Source: Hyphomicrobiales bacterium
GTDB lineage: Bacteria; Pseudomonadota; Alphaproteobacteria; Rhizobiales; Beijerinckiaceae
Reading direction: 5' to 3'
Assembly (NCBI GenBank): GCA_026400565.1
Contig: JAPLOV010000086.1
Location: forward strand, 1 to 47,163
DNA: 47,163 nucleotides
In this document: in pieces, positions 13,751-41,589 of the stretch
Position numbering within the stretch: the stretch's first letter is position 1
Layout of the letters: the number at the start of each line of letters is the position of its first letter
Translations under genes and position numbers: made by a program
Notes under the pieces: model-generated
The model's input: only the letters and a program-made list of their open reading frames with translations
What the model was told of the DNA's origin: nothing
Database searches by the model: none

Positions 13751-13784
13751 GTTCATGGTTGAACATGAGTGTTCAACCATGAAC
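13751..13784. promoter_or_regulatory. Paired palindromic operators upstream of broken marR
   Basis: Two 14-bp palindromes, GTTCATGGTTGAAC (13751-13764) and GTTCAACCATGAAC (13771-13784), both of form GTTCA-N4-TGAAC, face each other and together make a perfect 15-bp inverted repeat with a TGAG loop. Palindromes of this size before a marR gene are typical autoregulatory sites. As RNA the region would also form a strong hairpin. Confidence 0.6.
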
Positions 13785-13821
13785 GACAGTGCTCAGCCTT
13801 GAACAAAATCAAGAGGCGACT

Positions 13822-14350
13822 GTGCCGCAAAGCAGTGCGGTGACTGATTCACAGGGACATGGCGAAGACAGGTCGGGGCAGCAGACCGACGCTGGGCTGA
13901 TGCCTTGGGACATGCCGCGCTTTCGCAACTGGATCGCGGTCGCCAAGGTGCATGGGCTGGTTGAGAAGGCGATGGCTGCGGGCCTGGCGCCTTTGCTGTT
14001 CAAGCTGCCGCACGATGACATCACGATGACATCCTGTCCAATACCGACAGGTTTTCAGGCCTGACCCGGCAGGAACTGGCAAAGACGACATGCTGGTGGG
14101 CCGCTCCAACCTGTCGATGCTGCTGCCCGAGCCTGAGCGGCGGGGGCTGGTGAACCGTGTGATGGACAGCGAGGACCGGCGGGTGAGATGGCTTTCACTC
14201 ACCGGCAAGGGTGGGATGCTGACCTTGCGGGCCCTCAAGGTGCAGGTTCAGGTCATCGAAAACAGGATGGCAGCGTTCTCGGCTGAGGAATGCGAGGCTT
14301 CGGGCGACCATATGCGCCGGGATGGGCATCACATGCTGGCCAATCCGCTG
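13822..14350 (+). pseudogene. MarR-family regulator, broken by 11-bp duplication and further lesions
   Basis: The N-terminal part ('MPRFRNWIAVAKVHGLVEKA') and the winged-helix part ('LVGRSNLSMLLPEPERRGLV', 'VQVQVIENRMAAFSAEECEA', 'HMLANPL') of a MarR protein lie in different frames. At 14012-14033 the 11-mer ACGATGACATC occurs twice in tandem; removing one copy joins 'LPHDDI' to 'LSNTDRFSGLTRQELAKT' in a third frame. A second shift of 2 nt near 14086-14092 is then needed to reach the wing. The final frame has no stop at the expected place and runs on through the terminator. So at least two indels and a lost stop make it a pseudogene, or the sequence is faulty here. Confidence 0.8.
14012..14033. 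repeat. 11-bp tandem duplication inside marR
   Basis: ACGATGACATC is present twice head to tail (14012-14022 and 14023-14033). Removing one copy restores local MarR reading, so this is a recent duplication rather than an ancient repeat. Confidence 0.9.
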
Positions 14351-14380
14351 TCAGCGGATACAGCGCTCTGGCCGGAACAA

Positions 14381-14409
14381 AAGATGGCCGCCTGGAGGGC
14401 GGCCATCTT
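14381..14409. terminator. Bidirectional terminator between marR remnant and terC
   Basis: A perfect 12-bp stem AAGATGGCCGCC / GGCGGCCATCTT with a TGGAG loop. On the minus strand it ends ATCTTTTG and would terminate terC transcripts; on the + strand it ends ATCTTCTTG and would terminate the marR transcript. It lies between the two convergent genes. Confidence 0.75.
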
Positions 14410-14431
14410 CTTGTGCCTCAGCCCCGCGCCG

Positions 14432-15304
14432 TTACCGCGCGGGCTTTTCGTGTGGTGCATCGCCCCGGGTCTTCCAAAGCGAGTAGATGATCCCGGCGGC
14501 GATCAGCAGCACCGTGATGCCGAGCGAGTATTCCGGCGGAAACTTGCCGACCAGATTGTTCCAGAAGATCTTCAGGCCGATGAAGACCAGAACGATGGCC
14601 AGCGAGTATTTGAGATAGTGGAAGCGGTGGACCATGGCCGCCAGCGCGAAATACAGGGCGCGCAGACCGAGGATCGCCATGATGTTCGCCGTGTAGACAA
14701 TGAACGTGTCGGTGGTGATGGCGAAGATCGCCGGCACCGAATCCACCGCGAAGACCAGATCGGCGATGTTGATGACGACGAGCGCCGGATCGCCCTCCGG
14801 CACGAACAGCATCTTGATGCCGGTCGCGATCAGAAAGGCGCCGAAGAAGTAGAGGATCCAGCTGTAGTTCTGCACCAGAGCAGCCCCAACCGCGATCATG
14901 ATACCGCGCAGCACGATGACGGCCAGGATGCCCCAGACCAGTGCGCGATACTGATATTTGCGCGGGATGGCGAAGAAGCCGAAAATCAGTGAAATCACGA
15001 AGACATTGTCGATCGACAGCGCTTTTTCGATGAAGTAGCCGGTGAAGAAGGTGATGCCGGCATGCGTCTGGTCCGATGTGGTTATCACACCCGCTTCGTA
15101 GGCCCACCAGATGCCCGCGCCATAGATGATCGCAAAGCCAAAATAGAAAAGCGACAGCCACAGGCTTTCCGTGATGCCCATCTCCTTGTCTTCCTTGTGC
15201 CAGACTCCCAGGTCGAACACGAGCAGGGCGATGACGATGGACAGAAAACCCGCCCACATCCACAATGGTTTGCCGAGCCATTCGGCGATAAGCATGTCAG
15301 GCAT
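14432..15304 (-). CDS. terC: TerC family integral membrane protein
   Basis: A 290-residue membrane protein with about nine hydrophobic segments. It has the family's acidic signature in 'FIEKALSIDNVFVISLIFGF' and 'LVFAVDSVPAIFAITTDTF'. TerC/Alx proteins are associated with tellurite resistance, metal (manganese) export and metallation of secreted proteins. A start at ATG 15295 is an alternative. The upstream leader (15305-15430) was inspected for a yybP-ykoY manganese riboswitch core and none was convincing. It is followed by a bidirectional terminator. Confidence 0.94.
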   Translation of the reverse strand: MPDMLIAEWLGKPLWMWAGFLSIVIALLVFDLGVWHKEDKEMGITESLWLSLFYFGFAIIYGAGIWWAYEAGVITTSDQTHAGITFFTGYFIEKALSIDNVFVISLIFGFFAIPRKYQYRALVWGILAVIVLRGIMIAVGAALVQNYSWILYFFGAFLIATGIKMLFVPEGDPALVVINIADLVFAVDSVPAIFAITTDTFIVYTANIMAILGLRALYFALAAMVHRFHYLKYSLAIVLVFIGLKIFWNNLVGKFPPEYSLGITVLLIAAGIIYSLWKTRGDAPHEKPAR

Positions 15305-15859
15305 TTGCCGGATCCCGTGAGTTGAGTGAACGTCCGGTCCGGCCTGTCACCTGGACTTGCCGCATGGACGCATCAATGAAGCTACGTTGGCTCCGACATC
15401 ACGGGGCGTTCGGATGATATCAACGAACGCCTAGCCGCCAGAGGGGCCCGGTCACCAACTGTACTGATCTGGGGCGCTTCGCCGCAATGTCAAGGTTTCG
15501 CCACGATGTTGGGAATCGCATCGCCTGATTGTGGCGATACCGGCGAATGGAAACGCCAAGTGTGATGAACACAAGTATGATGAAGATCTGTGCAATCGCA
15601 CTAAAAATGTGCATCTGATGCCTGCTGCATCGATGGAGCCCGGCGCTGCAATGCCGGTCCCGTGGAGCTGACGCGCATCTGGAGCGATGCCGGGCGGCAC
15701 GGACCTTGCTACACTTGACCTGAGCCAGACTTGTGGTGTGATGTCCCGCACGCGAGAGCCAACCGATCCCGTGCGGCCTTTCCTGTCCGGTTAACAGACC
15801 TTTTCAGAAGCCAACCATCCTGATCATCCGGTCAGGCCTTGATGTGGAGTTGCCTGTCG
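15305..15859. other. Gene-poor stretch upstream of terC and the ABC transporter
   Basis: About 550 bases without a secure gene. A possible 64-residue minus-strand ORF (15420-15614) begins 'MHIFSAIAQIFIILVFITLG' and would have one membrane segment, but its C-terminal part is not protein-like and no good ribosome site precedes it. The region must contain the divergent promoters of terC and of the binding-protein gene. I see no strong hairpin, tRNA or repeat. Confidence 0.45.
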
Positions 15860-16921
15860 ATGACCTCCCTTGTGTCCCTTGCCCGCGCCAAGGCGGCGCG
15901 TTTCATCCGCCGGGCCGTGCTTGCCGGTGCCGGCGCAGCTGCGCTGCTCCTTGCTGCCGTGCCGCAGGCGAGCGCCCAGACCGCGATCCGGTTCACGCTG
16001 GACTGGCGGTTCGAAGGGCCGTCGGCACTGTTCCTGATGGCCATCGAGAAGGGCTACTTCAAGGCCGAGGGTCTCGATGTCACCATCGACACGGGCAACG
16101 GCTCGCGTGAGGCGATCCCGCGCGTAGCCTCCGGAACCTATGACATGGGCTTCGGCGACGTGAATTCGCTGATCCGCTTCCGCGACGAGAACCCCACCGT
16201 CGATCTGAAGTCCGTGATGATGATCTATGACAAGCCACCCTTCGCGATCGTCGGGCGCAAGTCGCGCGGAATCACCGCTGATGTGAAGAGCCTGGAAGGC
16301 AGGAAGTTCGGCGCGCCGGCTGCGGACGCAGCCTACGCCCAGTGGCCGATCTTCAGGGCCGTGAACAAGCTCAACGACGCCGCCATGAAGTTCGAGAACG
16401 TCGGCTTCCCGGTGCGCGAGCCGATGCTGGCCTCCGGTGAGGTGGACGCGGTGTTCGGCTTTGCCAATTCGTCCTACATCAATGTGAAGTCGCGCGGCGT
16501 GCCGGTCGATGACATCGTCACCATGCTGATGGCCGACTATGGCGTCGAGCTTTACGGCAACGTGATCATGGTCTCGCCGAAGTTCCTGGCCGAGAAGCCG
16601 GAGGCCGTGCGCGGGTTCCTGCGGGCCCTGACCAAGGGTGTGCGCGACACCGTCAAGGATCCGGCGGCAGGCGCTGCGCTGGTGATCAAGCGCAACGATG
16701 TTGCCCGCCTCGAGGTCGAGACCGAGCGACTGAAGATGACGGTAGACCAGAACGTGATCACGCCCTGGGTCAAGGCCAACGGGTTCGGCGGCATCGACAA
16801 GGGCCGCTGGAGCCGTGCCCTCGACCAGATCGGCCTGACCTTCACCTTCAAGGACAAGGCCAGGGCCGGCGATGCCTTTACCGATGCCTTCCTGCCCGGC
16901 GCAGCCGACCGCGCCATGTGA
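15860..16921 (+). CDS. ABC transporter substrate-binding protein (NMT1/TauT-NitT type)
   Basis: A 353-residue periplasmic binding protein. An N-terminal signal peptide 'FIRRAVLAGAGAAALLLAAV' ends in 'PQASAQ' (cleavage near residue 40). The mature part begins 'FTLDWRFEGPSALFLMAIEK' and contains 'GNGSREAIPRVASGTYDMGF', typical of the NMT1/SsuA-like family that binds sulfonates, nitrate, pyrimidines or similar. The start at ATG 15860 has GGAG about 9 bases upstream; in-frame ATG at 15842 is an alternative. ATPase and permease genes follow after a 190-base gap with a hairpin. The ligand cannot be told from sequence. Confidence 0.9.
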   Translation: MTSLVSLARAKAARFIRRAVLAGAGAAALLLAAVPQASAQTAIRFTLDWRFEGPSALFLMAIEKGYFKAEGLDVTIDTGNGSREAIPRVASGTYDMGFGDVNSLIRFRDENPTVDLKSVMMIYDKPPFAIVGRKSRGITADVKSLEGRKFGAPAADAAYAQWPIFRAVNKLNDAAMKFENVGFPVREPMLASGEVDAVFGFANSSYINVKSRGVPVDDIVTMLMADYGVELYGNVIMVSPKFLAEKPEAVRGFLRALTKGVRDTVKDPAAGAALVIKRNDVARLEVETERLKMTVDQNVITPWVKANGFGGIDKGRWSRALDQIGLTFTFKDKARAGDAFTDAFLPGAADRAM

Positions 16922-16959
16922 CCTGCCCCGTTATGAAGCGGGCTATCTGATCTTGATCT

Positions 16960-16997
16960 GGTGCCGGCCCGGTCTTGCGGGCCGGTGCCAGCCTTTT
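16960..16997 (+). terminator. Hairpin between binding-protein and ATPase genes
   Basis: A 12-bp stem (8 perfect bases CCGGCCCG / CGGGCCGG plus four flanking pairs with two wobbles) with loop GTCTTG, followed by CCTTTTGC. It lies 40 bases after the binding-protein stop. It is likely a partial terminator or 3' stabiliser that lets the binding protein be made in excess over the ATPase and permease. Confidence 0.55.
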
Positions 16998-17111
16998 GCT
17001 CCTTGTCAAGCATGGGTTGCCTTTCTGCCAGACAAAGCCCGTCTCCTCGCCCGCTCCTGCGGATCGGGGAAAGCCGATGGGTGATTGCGCCCTCAACCTG
17101 GACGGTGACCC

Positions 17112-17900
17112 ATGAGCTACTTCGTTGACGTGCAGAACGTCACCCATGTGTATGGCGGTGGTGACGGGACGCCGGCAGTCGAAGACCTGACAGTGCGCGT
17201 CCGCGAAGGCGAGTTTGCGGCGCTTGTCGGCCCGTCCGGATGCGGCAAGTCGACGATGATGAAACTGGCGACGGGCCTGCAATTCCCGAAGAGCGGAACG
17301 GTGATCGTGGATGGCGCCGAGGTGGCTGCCCCGTTGAAGATCACCGGCATGGCTTTCCAGAATCCCGTGATGCTGCCGTGGCGCACCGTGCTCGACAACC
17401 TGCGGTTGCCGCTGGAAATCGTCGAGCCCCATCGTTCGCGCTTCCGCGCCCACAAGCATGAATATGTGGCGCGTGCCGATAACCTGTTGCGCTCGGTCGG
17501 CCTTGCCGGCATGGGCGAGAAGTTCCCGTGGCAATTGTCGGGCGGCATGCAGCAGCGTGCGTCCTTGTGCCGGTCGCTGATCCATGAGCCGAAGCTCCTG
17601 ATGCTTGACGAGCCGTTCGGAGCGCTCGACACGTTCACGCGCGAGGAATTGTGGTGTGTGGTGCGTGACCTGCATGCGGAGCGCGGCTTCACGGTGATCC
17701 TGGTGACCCACGACCTGCGCGAGGCGGCGTTCCTGTCCGATCGCATCTACTGCATGAGTTCCCGCCCCGGGCGGATCATCGCCGAGCGCGAGGTCACCTT
17801 GCCGCGCCCGCGCGATCTCGACGTGACCTACACGCACGAATTCGCCGATATCGTCCAGGACCTGCGCAACCAGATCCGCAATGCGAGAGTGGCCGTCTGA
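17112..17900 (+). CDS. ABC transporter ATP-binding protein
   Basis: A 262-residue nucleotide-binding subunit. Walker A 'GPSGCGKST' (near 40-48), Q-loop 'MAFQNPVMLPWRTV', signature 'QLSGGMQQR', Walker B 'LLMLDEPFGALD' and H-loop 'VTHDLREA' are all present. The 'PWRTVLDN' form of the Q-loop region is typical of SsuB/TauB ATPases. Its stop overlaps the permease start by one base (TGATG), so the two are coupled. Together with the upstream binding protein it forms a TauT/NitT-type importer. Confidence 0.95.
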   Translation: MSYFVDVQNVTHVYGGGDGTPAVEDLTVRVREGEFAALVGPSGCGKSTMMKLATGLQFPKSGTVIVDGAEVAAPLKITGMAFQNPVMLPWRTVLDNLRLPLEIVEPHRSRFRAHKHEYVARADNLLRSVGLAGMGEKFPWQLSGGMQQRASLCRSLIHEPKLLMLDEPFGALDTFTREELWCVVRDLHAERGFTVILVTHDLREAAFLSDRIYCMSSRPGRIIAEREVTLPRPRDLDVTYTHEFADIVQDLRNQIRNARVAV

Positions 17901-18670
17901 TGGACCGCAAGACTTCCCTGAAGCTGGCGCCTTACCTGTTCACGATCGGATTTTTCATCCTCTGGGAGGTCGCGTGCCGGGTGCTGAAGGTCTCGACCTT
18001 CGTGCTGCCGCCACCGTCCGCCGTCTGGAGTGCGATGGTCCAATATCAGAGGCCACTTCTGATCAATGCCTTCCACACCCTGTGGATGACGACGGCCGGC
18101 TTCGGCCTTTCCGTGGTGTTCGGCATCGCGCTCGGGCTGATTGTCGGCTCATCACGGTTTCTCTATGCCGGCCTCAACCCGCTTCTGGTTGGCTTCAACT
18201 CGATTCCGAAGGTTGCCGTGGTGCCGATCCTGGTGATCTGGTTCGGAGTTGGCTGGCTGCCGCCGGTGCTGACCGCTTTCGTGATCTCGTTCTTTCCGAT
18301 CGTCGTCAACATGGCGACCGGGCTTGCCACGATCGAACCCGAAACCGAGGACGTGATGAAGGCTCTTGGCGCCAGCAGGCTCGACATCATGACCAAGGTC
18401 GGGATCCCGCGCTCGATGCCTTATCTGTTCGGCGCGCTGAAGGTCTCGATCACGCTGGCCTATGTCGGTTCGGTGATCGGCGAGCAGAATGCGTCGAACC
18501 TCGGCATCGGCAACCTGATCACGCGTGCCTCGGCCGATTTCAATGTGCCGCTGATCTTCGCGGCACTGATCGTCCTCGCCATTCTCGGTGTCTTCCTCGT
18601 CGTCATCGTCGACATGATCGAGGCGAGGACCACGAAGTGGGCGCGGCGCTCCCAGATGTCGAACGCCTGA
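17900..18670 (+). CDS. ABC transporter permease (SsuC/TauC-like)
   Basis: A 256-residue inner-membrane permease with about six membrane segments. The EAA-type cytoplasmic loop reads 'EDVMKALGASRLDIMTKVGI' followed by 'PRSMPYLFGALKVSI', the contact for the ATPase. It is of the BPD-type family that serves sulfonate, nitrate and pyrimidine importers. The start overlaps the ATPase stop. It is the last gene of the operon; the next gene is convergent. Confidence 0.93.
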   Translation: MDRKTSLKLAPYLFTIGFFILWEVACRVLKVSTFVLPPPSAVWSAMVQYQRPLLINAFHTLWMTTAGFGLSVVFGIALGLIVGSSRFLYAGLNPLLVGFNSIPKVAVVPILVIWFGVGWLPPVLTAFVISFFPIVVNMATGLATIEPETEDVMKALGASRLDIMTKVGIPRSMPYLFGALKVSITLAYVGSVIGEQNASNLGIGNLITRASADFNVPLIFAALIVLAILGVFLVVIVDMIEARTTKWARRSQMSNA

Positions 18671-18702
18671 GCCCTGTCGCAGCTGGGGGGCATCGATAGC
18701 CG

Positions 18703-19083
18703 TCACACTGCCCAGGCAGGGCTGGTGAGAATGGCGATCTGGGTCAGCCAGCCGATGATCCACAGCACCGAGCGGAGCGTGGCCGTATCGGCAACATAAG
18801 CGGCGGCATAGCCGATGCGGGCAGCCACGAACAGCACGGCAAGGGTATCGATCGTGCCTTGCGGCGCCTTCATCAGCATCGCTGCGAGCACGGCAGCGGC
18901 AAAGAAGGGAAAGGCTTCATAGCTGTTCTGGTGCGCGGCATAGGCGCGGCGGCGGTGCCCGACAAGGGTGTTGGCCCAATCCCGGGGATTGCGGTTGTCG
19001 AGGCCTGGACCCCATTTCGCCACACCGGCCATCACGACGGGCATGATCCCGGCCAAAAGAACGCACCACAGGGCAATCGGCAT
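18703..19083 (-). CDS. MAPEG family membrane protein
   Basis: A 126-residue protein with four hydrophobic helices and the MAPEG signature region 'RRAYAAHQNSYEAFPFFAAA'. MAPEG proteins are membrane enzymes of eicosanoid and glutathione metabolism in eukaryotes; bacterial members have largely unknown substrates. GAAGGAG stands about 7 bases before the ATG at 19083, which decides the start over the longer frame. It stands alone between convergent and same-strand neighbours. Confidence 0.88.
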   Translation of the reverse strand: MPIALWCVLLAGIMPVVMAGVAKWGPGLDNRNPRDWANTLVGHRRRAYAAHQNSYEAFPFFAAAVLAAMLMKAPQGTIDTLAVLFVAARIGYAAAYVADTATLRSVLWIIGWLTQIAILTSPAWAV

Positions 19084-19213
19084 CGTTCGGCTCCTTCGGC
19101 CCCGTGATGACAATACGCGGCCTGGCCAGGAATGGATCGAAAGCACCCTCCAGCAGGTTTCCGGTGCCCCGCTCTAGAGCGGAATCCGATGTGATTGCAT
19201 CAGGTCGTCCGCC

Positions 19214-19885
19214 CTAGCCCATTGTCTTGGCGTCATCTTTATCCACCAACCGGAGCCTGCCTGACGGGATGAGGCTCGAGCGCCGTGCATACCGGGTCTG
19301 GGCATCGAGGATCGCACCAAAGGCGCTGGCCGTGTTGGCGAGAGCCTCCGCCATTAGACTTGACGGTGTCGAGATATCGAGCCGGGCCAGTCCATGGGTC
19401 TCGCCATACAGACGCTGCAGCATCACGCCATGGCGTCTTGCCAGCGCCTTCATGGCGAGATTGTCGGGATGGCACATCACATCCAGCACCGACATGCCGC
19501 GGTTCCGCGCGGACAGGAGCACAGCCGCAAACAGGCGGCTGCCGATGCCTTGCCGGCGCCAGCCCTTCTCGACGCTGAAGGCCGCTTCGCCGTGCTGCCG
19601 GGGAAAGTCGAGAAGCCCCTGCAACTCACCAGTGGCCCGCACCACGCCATCGACGCAGCACGCATGGACCAGCCCGCCGACACAGAAGCTGCGGCCGGCG
19701 TAGGCGCGCAATGCCGCGTCGGTCATGGTCATGCCAAAGCGCCAGCGCCGTGCCTCCGGCTCCAGACGCAGCAGGTGTGCGACGTAGGCTTCGCGCTCAT
19801 GGGGCCAGAGCTTGCGCACGGTCACGCGCCCTGCAGCCGGCGCGGCCTCAGCGGCATATTCGATCATGGCGTCAGGATCAGTCAT
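19214..19885 (-). CDS. GNAT family N-acetyltransferase
   Basis: A 223-residue protein with a GNAT fold. The acetyl-CoA pyrophosphate-binding motif appears as 'KGWRRQGIGSRLFAAVL', followed by 'LDVMCHPDNLAMKALARRHG', the typical beta5-alpha4 region. The substrate is unknown. The C-terminal 50 residues are an extension rich in Ala/Ser. The start has AAGGAG about 10 bases upstream. The upstream intergenic space contains two sets of short tandem repeats (19995-20144). Confidence 0.88.
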   Translation of the reverse strand: MTDPDAMIEYAAEAAPAAGRVTVRKLWPHEREAYVAHLLRLEPEARRWRFGMTMTDAALRAYAGRSFCVGGLVHACCVDGVVRATGELQGLLDFPRQHGEAAFSVEKGWRRQGIGSRLFAAVLLSARNRGMSVLDVMCHPDNLAMKALARRHGVMLQRLYGETHGLARLDISTPSSLMAEALANTASAFGAILDAQTRYARRSSLIPSGRLRLVDKDDAKTMG

Positions 19886-19994
19886 GTCGTGTCGTCTCCT
19901 TCGCGGATTGCGATGCCTCGATGAGGTCAACGCCCAAGATGAAAAAACGACTCCCTAGACATCTGCATTATGCCGCATCGCAACATAAACGGCA

Positions 19995-20026
19995 ATGGTA
20001 ACACATGCCCATGGTAACACTTGCCC
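19995..20026. repeat. 16-bp tandem repeat, two copies
   Basis: ATGGTAACACATGCCC (19995-20010) and ATGGTAACACTTGCCC (20011-20026) differ at one base. They lie in the divergent promoter region and could be paired binding sites or slippage products. Confidence 0.85.
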
Positions 20027-20093
20027 ACGCCCTGTCGCCGCCGCCTGCCCGCTGCCGGGAGCGGTTTCCTGAGATGCCCATGCCGTCTCGCGC

Positions 20094-20144
20094 GGTCCTT
20101 TCTGTCACCCGGTCCTTTCTGTAACCCGGTCCTTTCTGTAACCC
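20094..20144. repeat. 17-bp tandem repeat, three copies
   Basis: GGTCCTTTCTGTCACCC (20094-20110) is followed by two identical copies of GGTCCTTTCTGTAACCC (20111-20127 and 20128-20144). The repeats end about 70 bases before the AhpD-like start codon. GGT and ACC at the ends of the unit are complementary, so each unit is weakly symmetric. Confidence 0.9.
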
Positions 20145-20216
20145 TTGCGCGCCAGGGCCGGTTCGCGGAATGTCGTCCATGAGGCCGGGCAAGAACGGGA
20201 CACGGGGAGACATGGC

Positions 20217-20654
20217 ATGTCGATGGTGAGATTGCTGGACGACGATGAACTGTCACCCGCCGCCGCTTCTGTGTTCGCGGACATCCGCGCCACACGCAAC
20301 ACGGCCTTTGTCGGCAATTTTTGGCGCGGGCTTGCCCATGACCCGGCCCTGCTCCGGCGGACCTGGGAGAGCGTCAAGGACGTGATGACGCCGGGTGCTC
20401 TCGATGCTCTGACCAAGGAAATGATCTATGTCGCCGTGTCGATGGCGAACAGTTGCGAGTATTGCATCCGTTCCCACACCGCGGCTGCCCGTGCCAGGGG
20501 CATGAGCGAGGCGCAACTGATGGAACTTGTTGCGGTGGTCGGCATGGCCAGCGAAACCAACAGGCTGGCGACAGGCCTTGTGATCCCGGTCGACGAGGCT
20601 TTCCGCGATCCGCCGCCGAAAGCCGCCGAAAGCCGCGAGCGGAGGCCGGCATGA
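20217..20654 (+). CDS. AhpD-like carboxymuconolactone decarboxylase family protein
   Basis: A 145-residue helical protein with the redox motif of AhpD in 'NSCEYCIRSHT' (C80, C83, H87). Members with this Cys-X2-Cys-X3-His motif act as alkylhydroperoxidase-like or related peroxide-reducing enzymes. GGGGAGA precedes the ATG by about 5 bases. It overlaps the next gene by 4 bases (ATGA), so both are co-translated. The specific substrate is unknown. Confidence 0.9.
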   Translation: MSMVRLLDDDELSPAAASVFADIRATRNTAFVGNFWRGLAHDPALLRRTWESVKDVMTPGALDALTKEMIYVAVSMANSCEYCIRSHTAAARARGMSEAQLMELVAVVGMASETNRLATGLVIPVDEAFRDPPPKAAESRERRPA

Positions 20655-21087
20655 GCGCGGATCGGCTGCCGCCATGCAAACAGGTCGTGCATTTGTTCTA
20701 CAAGGGCCCATGGGACCATGCTGACAGGAGCCTTATTCCGGAGATCTTCCATCCTGATCTCACGTTCCGGGGTTCGCTCGGGCCAGTTCTGGTCGGCCAT
20801 GAGGCCTTTGCCGGCCATGTCGACATGGTGACGACCGCCCTTGGCTCCTGCACCTGCGACATTCTCGAACTGGAGGAGGAGGGCGAGACCGTCTCGGGCA
20901 AGCTCAGGTTCCATGGCATTCATCGCGCGCCGCTGTTCGGGCATGCCCGTCCGGCCGGCATGGCTGGTGGTTTGGTGCACCGATCTTCCATTTCGAGGGC
21001 ATGAAGGTGCGCGAGCTATGGGTTCTGGGCGATATCCATGGATTGTTGGCACAGCTTCGCGGCGATTCCCCAACCCAGCCGGTCTGA
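20651..21087 (+). pseudogene. SnoaL-like / ester cyclase family protein, frameshifted
   Basis: The first frame encodes about 100 residues of a SnoaL-like cone-fold protein ('HPDLTFRGSLGPVLVGHEAF', 'GKLRFHGIHRAPLFGHA') and then goes off into an unrelated tail ending at 21004. A second frame continues with 'GRHGWWFGAPIFHFEG' and 'VRELWVLGDIHGLLAQL', the normal C-terminus, to a stop at 21085-21087. One extra base near 20948, in the run GCCCGT, would restore a 145-residue protein. Either a base was lost from a C run by mutation or the sequence has a single-base error. SnoaL-like proteins act on small hydrophobic substrates; the function here is unknown. Confidence 0.8.
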
Positions 21088-21166
21088 CCAGCAGATGCGT
21101 TGTCGTGGCCGGCAACACGCGCTATCAGGCGTCTGACCTCCGAAACTGCCGCTGCAAGGCCTGTTC

Positions 21167-22317
21167 GTGCCGAATTCTGCCGCCATTTCCCTGATCGACC
21201 ACTACGACGCGCTGGTCGCCACCGGTGCCATCGAACGCGATCCGGCGCAGGCGCTTCTTGTGCAGCAACTGGAAGACCTGGCGCTGCGACTTGGCGAGCG
21301 CGCGCTGGCCAGCAAGGGCCGGGCGCTGGGCTGGCTGTTTGCCAGGGGGCGGCCTGAGCCTGTTCCAATCAAGGGATTGTACATCTGGGGCTCGGTTGGT
21401 CGCGGCAAGACCATGCTGATGGACATGTTCTTTCGGCGCGTGAAGAACGTGACGAAACGGCGGGCGCACTTTCACACCTTCATGGCCGACGTGCATGCGC
21501 GCATCCATGCCTTCCGGCAACAGGTGAAGGCCGGCCAGATCAGGGATGGCGATCCGATCGCGCCAACCGCACGGGCCATCGCTGCGGAAGCGACCCTGCT
21601 GTGCTTCGACGAGTTCGCCGTCACGGACATCGCCGACGCGATGATCCTGGGCCGGCTGTTCAATGCCCTGTTCGCAGAAGGTGTGACGCTGGTGGCCACG
21701 TCGAACGTGGAGCCCTCTCGGCTGTATGAAGGCGGGCTCAACCGCACGCTGTTCATGCCGTTCATCGCCGAGCTTGGCCGTCAGGTTGTCGTGGCTCAGC
21801 TGGATGCCCGCACGGACTTCAGGCTGGAAAAGCTTGCTGGCGCTCTCGTCTATCACCAACCGCTCGGGCACGAGGCCACGGCTGCGCTCGATCAGGCCTT
21901 CGTGCGGCTGACCGGGCAGGCCGATGCGCCGCCGACCACGTTGACCGTGCTCGGCCACAGCCTCGATCTGCCGCATGCTGCCTTCGGCGTGGCACGGGCT
22001 TCCTTTTCGGATCTGTGCGGGCGCAGCTATGGCGCGCAGGATTTTCTTGCGCTGGCCCGCCAGTTCCATACGCTGGTTCTGGACAACGTGCCGTTGATGC
22101 AGGCGGAGAACCGCAACGAGGCCAAGCGCTGCTGATCGTGTCGGCGGCGGCGGAACCGCATCAGCTGTATCACGCCGACCACGGGCGCGAGGCCTTCGAG
22201 TTCGACCGGACGGCGTCGCGCCTGATCGAGATGCGCGGCGAGGACTACCTGACGCTGCCGCATGGACGCGGCGCGACCACGGCAAGCAGCAGTTCGACCG
22301 GGCTGGTGGAGACCTGA
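21167..22317 (+). pseudogene. zapE: Cell division ATPase ZapE (AFG1-like), broken by a ~40-nt deletion
   Basis: A ZapE/AFG1-type P-loop ATPase, the inner-membrane-associated FtsZ-ring regulator that usually precedes mdh in Rhizobiales. Walker A is 'GSVGRGKT' (75-82) and Walker B 'LLCFDEF'. The frame closes with TGA just after 'ENRNEAKR' at 22133, and a second frame resumes with 'LIVSAAAEPHQLYHADHGRE', 'AFEFDRTASRLIEMRGEDYL' to a stop at 22317. The missing part corresponds to the conserved segment between these motifs (about 14 residues); adding 40 nt would give about 396 residues, the normal size. The start at GTG 21167 is tentative. Its end overlaps the tetR start. Confidence 0.88.
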
Positions 22318-22928
22318 TGGCATTGATGCCGCAGACCAAGGAGCCGACCGACATGCGCCTTCTGGCGCTGGCGTCCGAGCACCTGAAGCTCATGGGTGCG
22401 CGGCGGCTGACCGTGGTGGCGATCGCGGAAGCGGCGGGCATGACACACGCCAATGTCTACCGCTATTTCCCGTCCAAGCAGGCCCTGATCGATGCGGTGG
22501 TCGATGCCTGGATCAAGTCCGTCGAGACGCGCCTGACCGACATTGCGGACGGCCCGGATCCTTCCGATGACAAGCTGGAGCGCATGATCCTTGCCCTGGC
22601 AAGGGCGAACCGCGATGGTCTGGGCGAGAATCCTGCGCTCTATGCGGCTTTCCGCGATGCCATGGTGAAGCGCCGGCCGGTGGCGAGACGGCACCGGTTG
22701 CGGGTGCGGACCCTGCTTGACCGTGTCATCGACGAAGGCATCAGCTCCGGCAGTTTCGAGCCACGTGACAAGGATCGGGCGGCCGTTTTCGTGCTCGATG
22801 CGTGTTTCCGTTTCGTGCATCCGGTTGCGGTGGAACTGGAAGGGGATGTTCCGCAGACCCAGTTCGACCAACGTCTGGCCGGCATCGTCAAGGTCATACT
22901 GAGAGCCCTCGCCAGCGGTGCGATCTGA
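22317..22928 (+). CDS. TetR family transcriptional regulator
   Basis: A 203-residue regulator. The N-terminal helix-turn-helix reads 'VVAIAEAAGMTHANVYRYFP' (about 34-53) followed by 'SKQALIDAVVDAW'. The C-terminal ligand domain is helical. The start codon overlaps the zapE frame's stop (TGATG) with GGAGA upstream, so it is coupled to zapE. The target is unknown; an unusual 13-bp inverted repeat lies 10 bases after its stop. Confidence 0.9.
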   Translation: MALMPQTKEPTDMRLLALASEHLKLMGARRLTVVAIAEAAGMTHANVYRYFPSKQALIDAVVDAWIKSVETRLTDIADGPDPSDDKLERMILALARANRDGLGENPALYAAFRDAMVKRRPVARRHRLRVRTLLDRVIDEGISSGSFEPRDKDRAAVFVLDACFRFVHPVAVELEGDVPQTQFDQRLAGIVKVILRALASGAI

Positions 22929-24241
<1,313 letters not shown>

Positions 24242-24349
24242 TTTGCCGCAGTCGGCGATCGGCCGTCGACCGTCGCAAGACGTGTCGGCCGGGACGGTTG
24301 AGCGACTGCCTCCTGCCCACTGACGATTGCCGTTCCAGAGGAACCCGAC

Positions 24350-25543
<1,194 letters not shown>

Positions 25544-25572
25544 ACGGGCTGCCGCTTGCGCTGATCTTTGCG

Positions 25573-25755
25573 TTGATCGTGTTCGTGATGGTGATCGCAA
25601 GGCGACAGTACAAGAGCTACTCCAGCCATCTCGCCGAGGTGACCCGGATCAATGAAAAGAACCGGGTACTGGGGCGCGAGAACCACGAAATCGCACGGCA
25701 TAGCCTGATTGTTCTGAAAGAAATCAAGACCTTACTGGAAGACAGGAAACCCTGA
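25573..25755 (+). CDS. Small single-pass membrane protein between sucC and sucD
   Basis: A 60-residue ORF with a hydrophobic N-terminus ('[16 protein letters not shown]', and if the frame is read further up, '[19 protein letters not shown]') followed by a charged helix ('[19 protein letters not shown]') likely to form a coiled coil. The start is uncertain: TTG 25573, GTG 25579 and ATG 25588 are in frame, and the frame is open back to 25507. Its stop overlaps the sucD start as TGATG, which argues for real, coupled translation. I do not recognise it. It may be a membrane tether or simply a conserved small protein of this lineage. Confidence 0.6.
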
Positions 25756-26655
25756 TGTCCATCCTCATCGACAAGAACACCAAGGTCATTTGCCAGGGCT
25801 TCACCGGCAAGAATGGGACCTTCCATTCCGAGCAGGCCATTGCCTATGGCACCGTGATGACCGGCGGCGTCTCGCCGGGCAAGGGCGGCTCGGTCCATCT
25901 CGGGCTGCCGGTCTTCGATACGGTGGCCGAGGCTGTCAGCGCCACCGGCGCGACGGCGACCGTGATCTACGTGCCGCCAGCAGGCGCCGCCGACTCGATC
26001 CTGGAAGCGATCGATGCGGAAGTGCCGCTCGCGGTCTGCATCGCTCGCGGTCTGCATCACCGAAGGCATTCCGGTCACTGACATGATCAAGGTCAAGCGC
26101 GCCCTGATCGGTTCGAAAACGCGGCTGATCGGACCGAACTGCCCTGGTATCGTCACCGCCGGCGAAAGCAAGATCGGCATCATGCCGGCCAACATTTTCA
26201 AGCCCGGCTCGGTCGGCATCGTCTCGCGCTCCGGCACGCTGACCTATGAGGCGGTGTTCCAGACAACGCGCGAAGGCCTTGGCCAGACCACGGCTGTCGG
26301 CATCGGCGGCGATCCGGTCAAGGGCACCGAGTTCATCGACATGCTGGAGATGTTCCTGGCCGATCCGCACACGACCTCGATCATCATGATCGGCGAAATC
26401 GGTGGCTCGGCCGAGGAAGATGCCGCGCAGTTCATCAAGGATGAGGCCAAGCGTGGCCGGAGCAAGCCAATGGTCGGCTTCATTGCCGGCCGGACCGCCC
26501 CCCCCGGTCGCCGCATGGGCCATGCCGGTGCCATCATCGCTGGTGGCAAGGGCGGCGCGGAAGACAAGATCGCAGCCATGGAAAGCGCCGGCATCAAGGT
26601 CTCGCCCTCGCCGGCACGCCTTGGAAAGACCTTGGTCGACGTGCTGAAGGGCTGA
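25755..26655 (+). pseudogene. sucD: Succinyl-CoA synthetase alpha subunit, frameshifted by a 16-bp duplication
   Basis: The N-terminal frame ('[20 protein letters not shown]', '[12 protein letters not shown]') shifts at 26026-26057, where the 16-mer CGCTCGCGGTCTGCAT is present twice in tandem. The other frame continues '[18 protein letters not shown]' through the phosphohistidine motif '[16 protein letters not shown]' to the stop at 26655. Removing one copy restores a 294-residue protein, the normal size, with no other lesion. As written, translation ends 26079-26081. The protein is the CoA-binding and phosphorylated half of succinyl-CoA synthetase. Whether the duplication is genuine is the key question. 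Confidence 0.92.
26026..26057. repeat. 16-bp tandem duplication inside sucD
   Basis: CGCTCGCGGTCTGCAT occurs twice head to tail (26026-26041 and 26042-26057) with no mismatch. It adds 16 bases to an otherwise normal sucD and so shifts the frame by one. Confidence 0.95.
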
Positions 26656-26668
26656 GAGGCTTGCTGCC

Positions 26669-27010
26669 GTGAAGATCAGCGACATTGCTTTCGTGACAAC
26701 GGACTGGGCCAGCCTCGCGCCGACCCAGCACTCCGGCGATGAAGGCGTGGCGCTCTGGCGAACGCAGACGTTCGGCCCTGAAGACAACAAGATCAGGGTG
26801 CGGATGGTGGACTATTCGCCGGGCTACGTCTCCGACCACTGGTGCCAGAAAGGGCATGTCCTGTTCTGCATGAGCGGAGACCTTGAAACGACACTTGCCG
26901 ACGGACGGGTCTACACGCTGTCCGCTGGCCAAAGCTACCAGGTCGCAGACGGGGCGGAGCCCCACCGTTCGCGCAGCGTCAGCGGCGCGAGACTGTTCAT
27001 CGTGGATTGA
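26669..27010 (+). CDS. DHCW-motif cupin protein
   Basis: A 113-residue small cupin. It carries the family motif 'SDHWCQKGHVLFCMSGDLE' (about 51-69) and the second cupin strand region 'LSAGQSYQVADGAEPHRSRS'. The metal ligands would be histidines in these motifs. The function of the DHCW cupin family is not known. It lies between sucD (13-base gap) and sucA (14-base gap), clearly inside the TCA operon, which is not its usual recorded place to my knowledge. The start is a reasonable ATG, with no strong ribosome site noted. Confidence 0.85.
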   Translation: MKISDIAFVTTDWASLAPTQHSGDEGVALWRTQTFGPEDNKIRVRMVDYSPGYVSDHWCQKGHVLFCMSGDLETTLADGRVYTLSAGQSYQVADGAEPHRSRSVSGARLFIVD

Positions 27011-27024
27011 TCCGGAGATATCCA

Positions 27025-29951
27025 ATGGGACGCCAGGACGCCAACGACGTTTTTGCCCAGACTTCGTTCCTCTACGGGGCCAATGCTGGCTACATTGAGG
27101 ATCTTTTTGCGCGCTACCAGGCCAATCCGGCCTCGGTCGATGCGGACTGGCAGGCTTTCTTCGGTGCGCTGAAGGACGATGCGAAGGACGCCACCACCGC
27201 GTCCGGCGGCGCTTCGTGGCAGCGCCCGAACTGGCCAATCCATGCCAATGGCGAGCTGATTTCGGCGCTCGATGGCAATTGGGCCCAGGTCGAGAAGAAT
27301 GTTGGCGACAAGCTCAAGGGCAAGGCGCAGACCAGGAGCGTCGAACTCAGCGAGGCGGATGTGCAGCAGGCGACGCGCGATTCGGTGCGCGCCCTGATGC
27401 TGATCCGCGCCTACCGCATGCGCGGCCATCTGCACGCCCAGCTCGATCCTCTCGGCATCGAGGCCAAGAAGGCCAACGAGGAGCTGGATCCGGCATCCTA
27501 TGGCTTCAGCGCCGCCGATATGGACCGCAAGATCTTCATCGACCATGTGCTCGGCATGGAGTTCGCGACCATCCGCGAGATGATTGCGGTGCTCGACCGG
27601 ACCTACTGCCAGACCATGGGCGTCGAATTCATGCACATCACAGATCCGGCCCAGAAAGGCTGGATCCAGGAACGCATCGAAGGCCCGGACAAGGAAATCG
27701 CCTTCACCCGCGAGGGCAAGCGCGCCATCCTCAACAAGCTGGTCGAGGCCGAGGGCTTCGAGAAGTTCATCGACCTCAAGTATACCGGCACCAAGCGCTT
27801 CGGCCTCGATGGCGGGGAATCGCTGATCCCGGCGCTTGAGCAGATCATCAAGCGCGGCGGCAACCTCGGCGTGAAGGACATCGTCCTGGGCATGGCCCAT
27901 CGCGGCCGCCTCAACGTGCTGACCCAGGTGATGAGCAAGCCGCACCGCGCGCTGTTCCACGAGTTCAAGGGCGGCTCCGCTGCGCCCGATGATGTGGAAG
28001 GCTCGGGCGACGTGAAGTATCACCTCGGGGCCTCATCGGACCGCGAGTTTGATGGCAACAAGGTTCACCTGTCGCTGACGCCCAACCCGTCGCATCTGGA
28101 AATCGTCGATCCGGTCGTGCTCGGCAAGGTCCGTGCCAAGCAGGACCAGCTGGCCGATGTGGTGGCGATGCCGCCTTTGCGGGCCAGGGCGTGGTGGCCG
28201 AGTGCCTCGGCCTGTCGGGGCTGAAGGGTCACCGCACCGGCGGTTCGATCCATTTCATCATCAACAACCAGATCGGCTTCACCACCTATCCGCGCTATTC
28301 GCGCTCCTCGCCCTATCCGTCCGATGTGGCAAAGATGGTGGAAGCACCGATCTTCCACGTCAACGGTGATGACCCGGAAGCGGTGGTGTTCGCCGCAAAG
28401 GTGGCGACCGAGTTCCGCCAGAAGTTCCACAAGCCGGTGGTCATCGACATGTGGTGCTATCGCCGCTTCGGCCACAACGAGGGCGACGAGCCGGGCTTCA
28501 CCCAGCCGCTGATGTACAAGAAGATCCGGGGCCACAGGTCGACGCTGGAGCTTTATGGCGCCAAGCTGGTCGCCGAAGGCACCGTCACCGAAGCTGAAAT
28601 CGACGCCATGAAGGCAGACTGGAAGAACCGGCTCGAAGCCGAGTTTGAGTCGACGCTCGGCTACAAGCCGAACAAGGCTGACTGGCTTGACGGCAAGTGG
28701 GCCGGTCTCAAGGCGATCAAGGAAGATACCGACGATCCGCGCTCCGGTGCGACCGGCGTGCCGGCGGCGGTGCTGCGCGAGATCGGCGAGAAGATTACTG
28801 CCGTTCCGGCCGGGTTCAGCGTGCACAAGACGATCCAGCGTTTCCTCGACAACCGCAAGAAGGCGGTCGAGACCGGCGAGGGCATCGATTGGGCAACCGG
28901 CGAGGCACTGGCGTTCTGCTCGCTGCTGCTGGAAGGGCACCCGGTGCGCCTCTCCGGCCAGGACTGCGAGCGCGGCACCTTCTCCAGCCGCCACTCGGTG
29001 CTGATCGACCAGGAAACCGAAGGCCGCCATACGTCGTTCAACCACATCCGCGAGGGCCAGCCGCGCTACGAGGTCATCAACTCGATGCTGTCGGAAGAGG
29101 CTGTCCTGGGCTTCGAGTATGGCTATTCGCTGTCGGAACCCAACGCGCTGGTGTGCTGGGAAGCCCAGTTCGGCGACTTTGCCAACGGCGCACAGGTGGT
29201 GTTCGACCAGTTCATCTCGTCGGGCGAGCGCAAGTGGCTGCGCATGTCGGGTCTCGTCTGCCTGCTGCCCCACGGCTATGAGGGCCAGGGACCGGAGCAT
29301 TCCTCCGCCCGTCTCGAGCGCTTCCTGCAGATGTGTGCCGAAGACAACATGCAGGTCGCGAACTGCTCGACGCCGGCCAACTACTTCCACATCCTGCGAC
29401 GCCAGCTCAAGCGCGAGTTCCGCAAGCCGCTGGTGCTGATGACGCCCAAGTCGCTGCTCAGGCACAAGCGCTGCGTGTCGGATCTGGCGGATCTCGCCGA
29501 AGGCTCGACCTTCCACCGGGTGCTGCGCGACGATGCCGAGACCAGGAAGGGCGAGGCCATCAAGCTCGCCAAGGATGCCAAGATCCGGCGCGTCGTGCTG
29601 TGCAGCGGCAAGGTCTACTACGATCTTTACGAAGACCGCGAGAAGCGCGGCATCGACGATGTCTACCTGCTGCGCGTCGAGCAGCTCTATCCGTTCCCGC
29701 TGAAGTCGCTGGCCAACGAACTGGCGCGCTTCAAGGGTGCCGACATCGTCTGGTGCCAGGAAGAGCCGAAGAACATGGGCTCGTGGAGCTTCGTCGAGCC
29801 CTATCTCGAATGGGTGCTCGGCCACTGCGGGGTCAAGGCCAAGCGCGCGCGCTATGTCGGACGCCCGGCATCGGCGGCCACGGCTACGGGCATGATGTCC
29901 AAGCATCTGGTCCAGCTCAAGGCATTCCTCGATGAGGCTTTCGCGGCCTGA
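27025..29951 (+). pseudogene. sucA: 2-Oxoglutarate dehydrogenase E1, frameshifted by a ~34-nt deletion
   Basis: The thiamine-diphosphate-dependent E1 of the 2-oxoglutarate dehydrogenase complex. N-terminal landmarks: 'MGRQDANDVFAQTSFLYGAN' and 'LGMAHRGRLNVLTQVM'. The first frame reads 'KVRAKQDQLADVV' and then goes wrong at about 28164-28167; another frame resumes with 'DAAFAGQGVVAECLGLSGLK' and 'FIINNQIGFTTYPRYS' and runs to the stop at 29951. Homologues have about 12 more residues at this junction (around 'ERTKVLPLLIHG'), so about 34 nt are missing. Restoring them gives about 986 residues, the usual size. GGAG precedes the ATG. As written the protein ends at 28224 and lacks the catalytic second half. 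Confidence 0.92.
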
Positions 29952-41254: not shown

Positions 41255-41589
41255 CGGGTCCATCCCTTTTTCTTGCTGGTGGTGTTTGTGCAGGATGTCT
41301 GTGCAGGGTGCCTGTGCAAGGTGTCTGTGCAAGGTGTCTGTGCAGGGTGTCTGTCCGGGCAGCAACCCGGGGACGTCGCCTGGACACAGGCTCTTTGACC
41401 GGCGTGTCATCATCCGATTGTCGTGTGGCCTCGTAAAGACAATAAATGCGTCTCAAGCCGATGACGGCGTCGCTGTCGCAGGCGCGGACAGTGCTTAGAT
41501 TGCGCTGGACGGCGCCACGCCCAGATGACAATGACGGCAGATCATTTCCCGGCTTATCGCCCCGTGCGGACAGGTTTCGGACACGCGCC
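41255..41589. other. Divergent region between nucleotidase and hemH
   Basis: About 335 bases. The part next to the nucleotidase gene is a five-unit 13-bp tandem repeat (41288-41352). In-frame upstream extensions exist for both genes but cover the repeats and a promoter-like region, so I treat them as non-coding. I do not see a terminator or a small gene. Confidence 0.5.
41288..41352. repeat. 13-bp tandem repeat, five copies
   Basis: Units: GTGCAGGATGTCT (41288), GTGCAGGGTGCCT (41301), GTGCAAGGTGTCT (41314), GTGCAAGGTGTCT (41327), GTGCAGGGTGTCT (41340). Units 3 and 4 are identical and the others differ at one to three bases. The array lies 34 bases before the nucleotidase start codon, in its probable 5' leader. 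The unit length is not a multiple of three. Confidence 0.92.

Follow-up and report, generated by a model that had tools for sequence, protein, structure and literature searches.

Are five short, frame-disrupting indels within 14.2 kb of conserved genes a record of mutation in a living bacterium or a product of the way in which its genome was put together? The question is raised by a window of 47,163 nt, the whole stretch of DNA analysed here, which forms positions C58:1-47163 of a draft genome of 3.44 Mb in 267 contigs (completeness 94.0%, contamination 2.7%). The original prediction described indels in a marR gene, a SnoaL-like gene, zapE, sucD and sucA, and considered local contig errors, a library or assembly artefact, and true lesions that had built up in zapE and the TCA operon. 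It held the short duplications and the 30-40-nt deletions to be atypical of plain base-call errors, which brought a library or assembly artefact, or true mutation, into consideration.

The host genus is Bosea-like; the nearest named relatives of sucA are found in Bosea sp. ASV33 and B. caraganae (86% amino acid identity over the C-terminal part), and sucA shares 77-83% nucleotide identity with 24 genomes of the same genus. The gene order zapE - TetR - mdh - sucC - sucD - sucA - sucB - lpd is also present in one of these relatives, G010. With 3.44 Mb, the draft genome is smaller than all 24 (4.3-7.6 Mb), and many of the sampled contigs have few or no genes in common with the sampled relatives at an identity of at least 60%. 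A chimeric bin was considered and rejected, as sampled stretches of at least 5 kb match the core of the window in tetranucleotide make-up (r 0.83-0.99).

Frame Breaks in the Window

All five indels are present in the sequence (Table 1). zapE and sucD change frame relative to six of six same-genus references, and sucA, which is cut by stretch ends in the six-genome comparison, does so relative to the references that span the gene; pairwise alignment yields a loss of 40 nt in zapE, a gain of 16 nt in sucD and a loss of 34 nt in sucA. The TetR gene, mdh, sucC, sucB and lpd change frame relative to none of the six references. An intact second copy was not found by whole-genome DNA search for either zapE-sucD or sucA, the sole other matches being pieces of 43 and 40 nt, respectively. 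Read by eye, the MarR-like gene has its coding sense spread over three frames. For its last piece, PDB chains of the MarR family were retrieved (best E 5.9e-5), and the pieces that were tried reached no Pfam family. In the SnoaL-like gene, the upstream piece covers positions 2-88 of the 126 in the Pfam SnoaL profile; the remainder lies in another frame, where the downstream piece of 41 aa has no match by itself.

Table 1. Positions of the features discussed, given in window coordinates unless another locus or contig is named.
Feature	Position	Strand	Observation
MarR-like regulator gene	13822..14341	+	Three frames; perfect 11-nt tandem pair at 14011-14032; further frame change near 14080-14090
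SnoaL-like gene	20600..21087	+	Frame change near 20955-20990
zapE	21167..22317	+	Frame change at 22127-22131; about 40 nt short relative to references (one reference named ZapE)
sucD	25755..26655	+	Perfect 16-nt tandem pair at 26026-26057 shifts the frame
sucA	27025..29951	+	Frame change at 28164; 34 nt short relative to references
Window end	47163		Next contig base, C58:47164, is a single N (1-N run)
Tandem arrays between genes, window	41281-41354, 20093-20144, 19995-20027		Examples
Tandem arrays between genes, other loci	L169 886-963, L123 10362-10433, L124 320-371		Examples
valS, frame-change site	L248:1498-1507		5-nt tandem copy
polA	L146 13207 (contig C250)		Split within the polymerase domain
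Frame changes in relative G011	L187 11404, L227 12460, L238 11257		On N-runs of 3-4 nt

Several parts of the original description thus hold: both copies are perfect in the 11-bp and the 16-bp tandem duplication, the family-normal lengths expected after correction fit those of the references (zapE 392 aa, sucD 294 aa, sucA 985 aa), and the near absence of breaks from the rest of the window fits the testable genes, 18 of the 21 genes in the window for which a usable reference exists being unbroken.

Some of these genes might be read through by programmed frameshifting. We found no supporting evidence for this, the relatives encode zapE, sucD and sucA in a single frame, and a one-base slip cannot make up for 34-40 nt missing from conserved coding sequence. 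Hence, we regard programmed frameshifting as the least credible of the explanations.

Frame Breaks Across the Draft Genome

To look beyond the window, we trained a gene-calling model on verified same-genus genes and searched for breaks with tblastn, dropping rows of less than 60% reference identity or less than 80% coverage. In the sample taken of the 3.44-Mb genome, seven of 86 comparable genes are broken, namely sucA, sucD, zapE, gltB, a hisN-type gene, an acyl-CoA dehydrogenase gene and ubiB. By the same method, none of 130 genes is broken in the relatives (0/51 in G011, 0/52 in G016, 0/27 in five other genomes; Fisher p = 0.0014 for the draft genome against the pooled relatives). Looser controls flagged one of 288 relative genes in a six-genome run (a stop near the gene end) and, in a second run, two of 90 genes in G011 (an end-of-gene stop at 30% identity and a 60-N run), 0/83 in G016 and 0/73 in five other genomes; the second run flagged ten of 156 genes in the draft genome, one doubtful end-of-gene stop included.

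A homology-free scan points in the same direction, with 29 frame-switch junctions in 519 kb here vs four in 1.2 Mb of G011, although 29 overstates the true number. Pfam was used to check 21 of them. One family continues across the junction in seven (PutA, PolA, the acyl-CoA dehydrogenase already listed, a CysK-like enzyme, DctM, an SDR enzyme and a transposase), an eighth, in an M20 peptidase, is confirmed by PDB matches, and one more is probable (ComEC). Six are ordinary gene boundaries, and for the other six the check gave no decision either way. The broken genes lie on several contigs and are functionally unrelated, with roles in metabolism, division, transport, repair and translation.

These data bear on whether a local event struck the 14-kb region, be it a mutation shower or poor assembly of this one patch. 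Five lesions in 14.2 kb, next to 18 unbroken genes among the 21 testable ones of the window, would fit such an event. However, the four breaks among 65 genes outside the window are not significantly fewer than the three among 21 inside (p = 0.35), and family-confirmed breaks occur on many other contigs. A cluster confined to 14.2 kb, as originally described, is therefore rejected, and a local event is very improbable.

Runs of N and the Sizes of the Losses

The 504 kb of unmasked sequence contain 11 N-runs of 1, 4, 5, 17, 18, 20, 25, 44, 49, 63 and 82 nt, to which the loci of the core-gene search add runs of 2 and 8 nt. Seven small sampled contigs consist entirely of N, which suggests that the provider masked them; some of the short N-runs could thus be masks and not gaps. 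N-runs coincide with frame breaks in two genes: ubiB carries 20 N at its break and is 52 nt short of the reference, and lepA, named via its G011 counterpart, carries 2 N. By approximate profile alignment, a transporter gene with a 5-N run is about 21 nt short and an NdvA-like gene with a 49-N run is about 24 nt too long. The gap lengths are thus off in both directions and unreliable.

Most breaks lie away from any N. Only one of the 29 frame-switch junctions falls on an N-run, and six of the seven broken genes of the 86-gene comparison contain no N at all. If the breaks are joints, most joints must therefore have been closed without N. The measured N-free losses (34, 40, 44 and 71 nt) are of the same order as the errors of the N-run gaps, and profile coordinates give similar values for PolA (about 45 nt), PutA and DctM (about 51 nt each) and the CysK-like enzyme (about 66 nt). 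The break in gltB is smaller (1 nt). In G011, three of the four frame-switch junctions lie on N-runs (Table 1), so a similar joint error appears to occur in this public genome at a much lower rate.

Real Lesions as an Alternative

First, we focus on valS because this gene is essential to cells. A whole-genome search with PF00133 finds one ValS, and it is encoded in two frames, with a frame change at residue 144 relative to the G011 gene named valine--tRNA ligase. A second copy may sit in the missing 6% of the genome. Two more synthetases of the PF00133 family are divided between contigs, IleS and LeuS being judged by size and match. A MetG-like synthetase gene has an open frame, rpoC is open and intact, and several GTPase genes (EF-G-, EF-Tu- and IF-2-like) are intact, where the synthetase names IleS, LeuS and MetG-like and the GTPase names are our own assignments. 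Since the sole ValS found carries the same kind of break as the other genes, real lesions in a living cell are disfavoured.

Relaxed selection with gene loss by indels, as in early host restriction, would make the broken genes genuine recent pseudogenes. Their wide distribution and the small genome relative to the 24 same-genus genomes are consistent with this. Against it stand the broken ValS and the lack of nonsense changes in the 86 genes of the homology comparison; the homology-free scan finds no nonsense change here and one in G011, but detects just 14% of simulated cases. Moreover, the broken genes and their unbroken neighbours are conserved alike (sucD 88%, sucC and mdh 84%, the tested part of sucA 83%, lpd 81%, sucB 79%), and coding density is not lowered in stretches of at least 14 kb (0.817 here vs 0.810 in G011; 0.776 over the whole sample including masked contigs). 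Recent pseudogenes are thus unlikely. The original suggestion that zapE and the TCA operon have accumulated true lesions is not supported either, as genes of unrelated functions are broken, nonsense changes are absent from the 86 genes and the sole ValS is affected.

Short tandem arrays lie between genes, with units mostly of 11-17 bp and often diverged copies (Table 1). In noncoding DNA their density is about 4.5-fold that in G011 (36 in 101 kb vs 18 in 227 kb), and those with at least three copies number 16 here vs five in G011. Perfect-copy arrays alone amount to 33 in 116 kb here vs six in 227 kb of G011. Of the 36 arrays, 27 have a 5' end as the closest end of a gene, vs nine of 18 in G011. 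Because many copies are diverged, the arrays are real, which leaves some room for a real duplication-prone process that could account for some of the tandem copies in genes.

The arrays are one of two observations that would fit a real indel mutator, in which a defect of DNA maintenance produces short tandem duplications and deletions of 30-70 nt and the genes discussed here are casualties. The other is polA, which is split within the polymerase domain and about 45 nt short, with an intact 5'-nuclease part. In its full form this explanation would have a Bosea-type lineage whose DNA polymerase I lacks the polymerase half pile up both kinds of change in genes and minisatellites mostly upstream of genes, and live with split translation and TCA-cycle genes. 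Yet polA is broken in the same way as the other genes and could be just another artefact, and a broken sole ValS is not sustainable in a living cell. Furthermore, lesion sites (n = 15) differ from 300 random coding sites neither in GC (p = 0.50) nor in folding energy (p = 0.24), so nothing special marks them. We consider a mutator slightly less probable even than pseudogenes, and its full form just as improbable. Special sequence sites as the cause of the indels are rejected on the same grounds, the lesion sites being ordinary in both respects.

Joining Errors as the Most Likely Explanation

A break in the essential and only ValS found, together with breaks throughout the genome, makes errors at assembly joints likelier than mutations. 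We conclude, with a probability of roughly 0.85, that the indels arose as artefacts of assembly, at scaffold joints distributed over the whole draft genome, and are most likely not bacterial mutations. Hence, the artefact considered in the original prediction is favoured, whereas its restriction to local contig errors is not, as the errors are genome-wide.

In the simplest account, one joining step would have had three outcomes. Where the overlap between neighbouring contigs was too short to be merged, the contigs would have been set end to end and the overlap doubled; the 5-nt copy in valS, the 11-nt copy in the MarR-like gene and the 16-nt copy in sucD would be such doubled overlaps. Where a small stretch between contigs was uncovered, the contigs would have been abutted and 34-71 nt lost. 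Where the gap estimate was positive, an N-run of unreliable length would have been left in place. By inference, this one step produced the N-free indels as well as the N-runs.

Implications and Comparison With Known Genomes

The five indels are thus most likely not a real feature of the biology of this bacterium, and the loss of succinyl-CoA ligase, 2-oxoglutarate dehydrogenase or glutamate synthase should not be read from the draft genome. For joint errors in draft genomes, a practical signature is provided by tandem copies 5-16 nt long, missing stretches of 34-71 nt and short N-runs, and a break in the only tRNA ligase of its kind can serve as internal control. Should the indels be real after all, this strain would have to count as a strong indel mutator.

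Sodalis-type genomes, from the early stage of host restriction, are rich in pseudogenes. The draft genome resembles them in its many frame-broken genes and in being smaller than those of its relatives. It differs in the normal coding density of its long contigs, in having no nonsense change in 86 genes and in its broken sole ValS.

A published precedent is version 1.0 of the Vibrio fischeri ES114 genome, which held frameshift errors and in which, according to the passages of the report that describe these errors, contig ends had been set in tandem instead of being overlapped, giving artefactual expansions (Mandel et al., 2008; PMC2330054). There, the extra stretches measured 318-1264 bp and were proved by resequencing, whereas in the draft genome the extras are 5-16 nt long, losses of 34-71 nt are common and the artefact is inferred from sequence comparison. 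In both cases, as far as the same passages describe V. fischeri, comparison with one or more relatives revealed frame-broken conserved genes, and extra sequence is attributed to contig ends placed in tandem.
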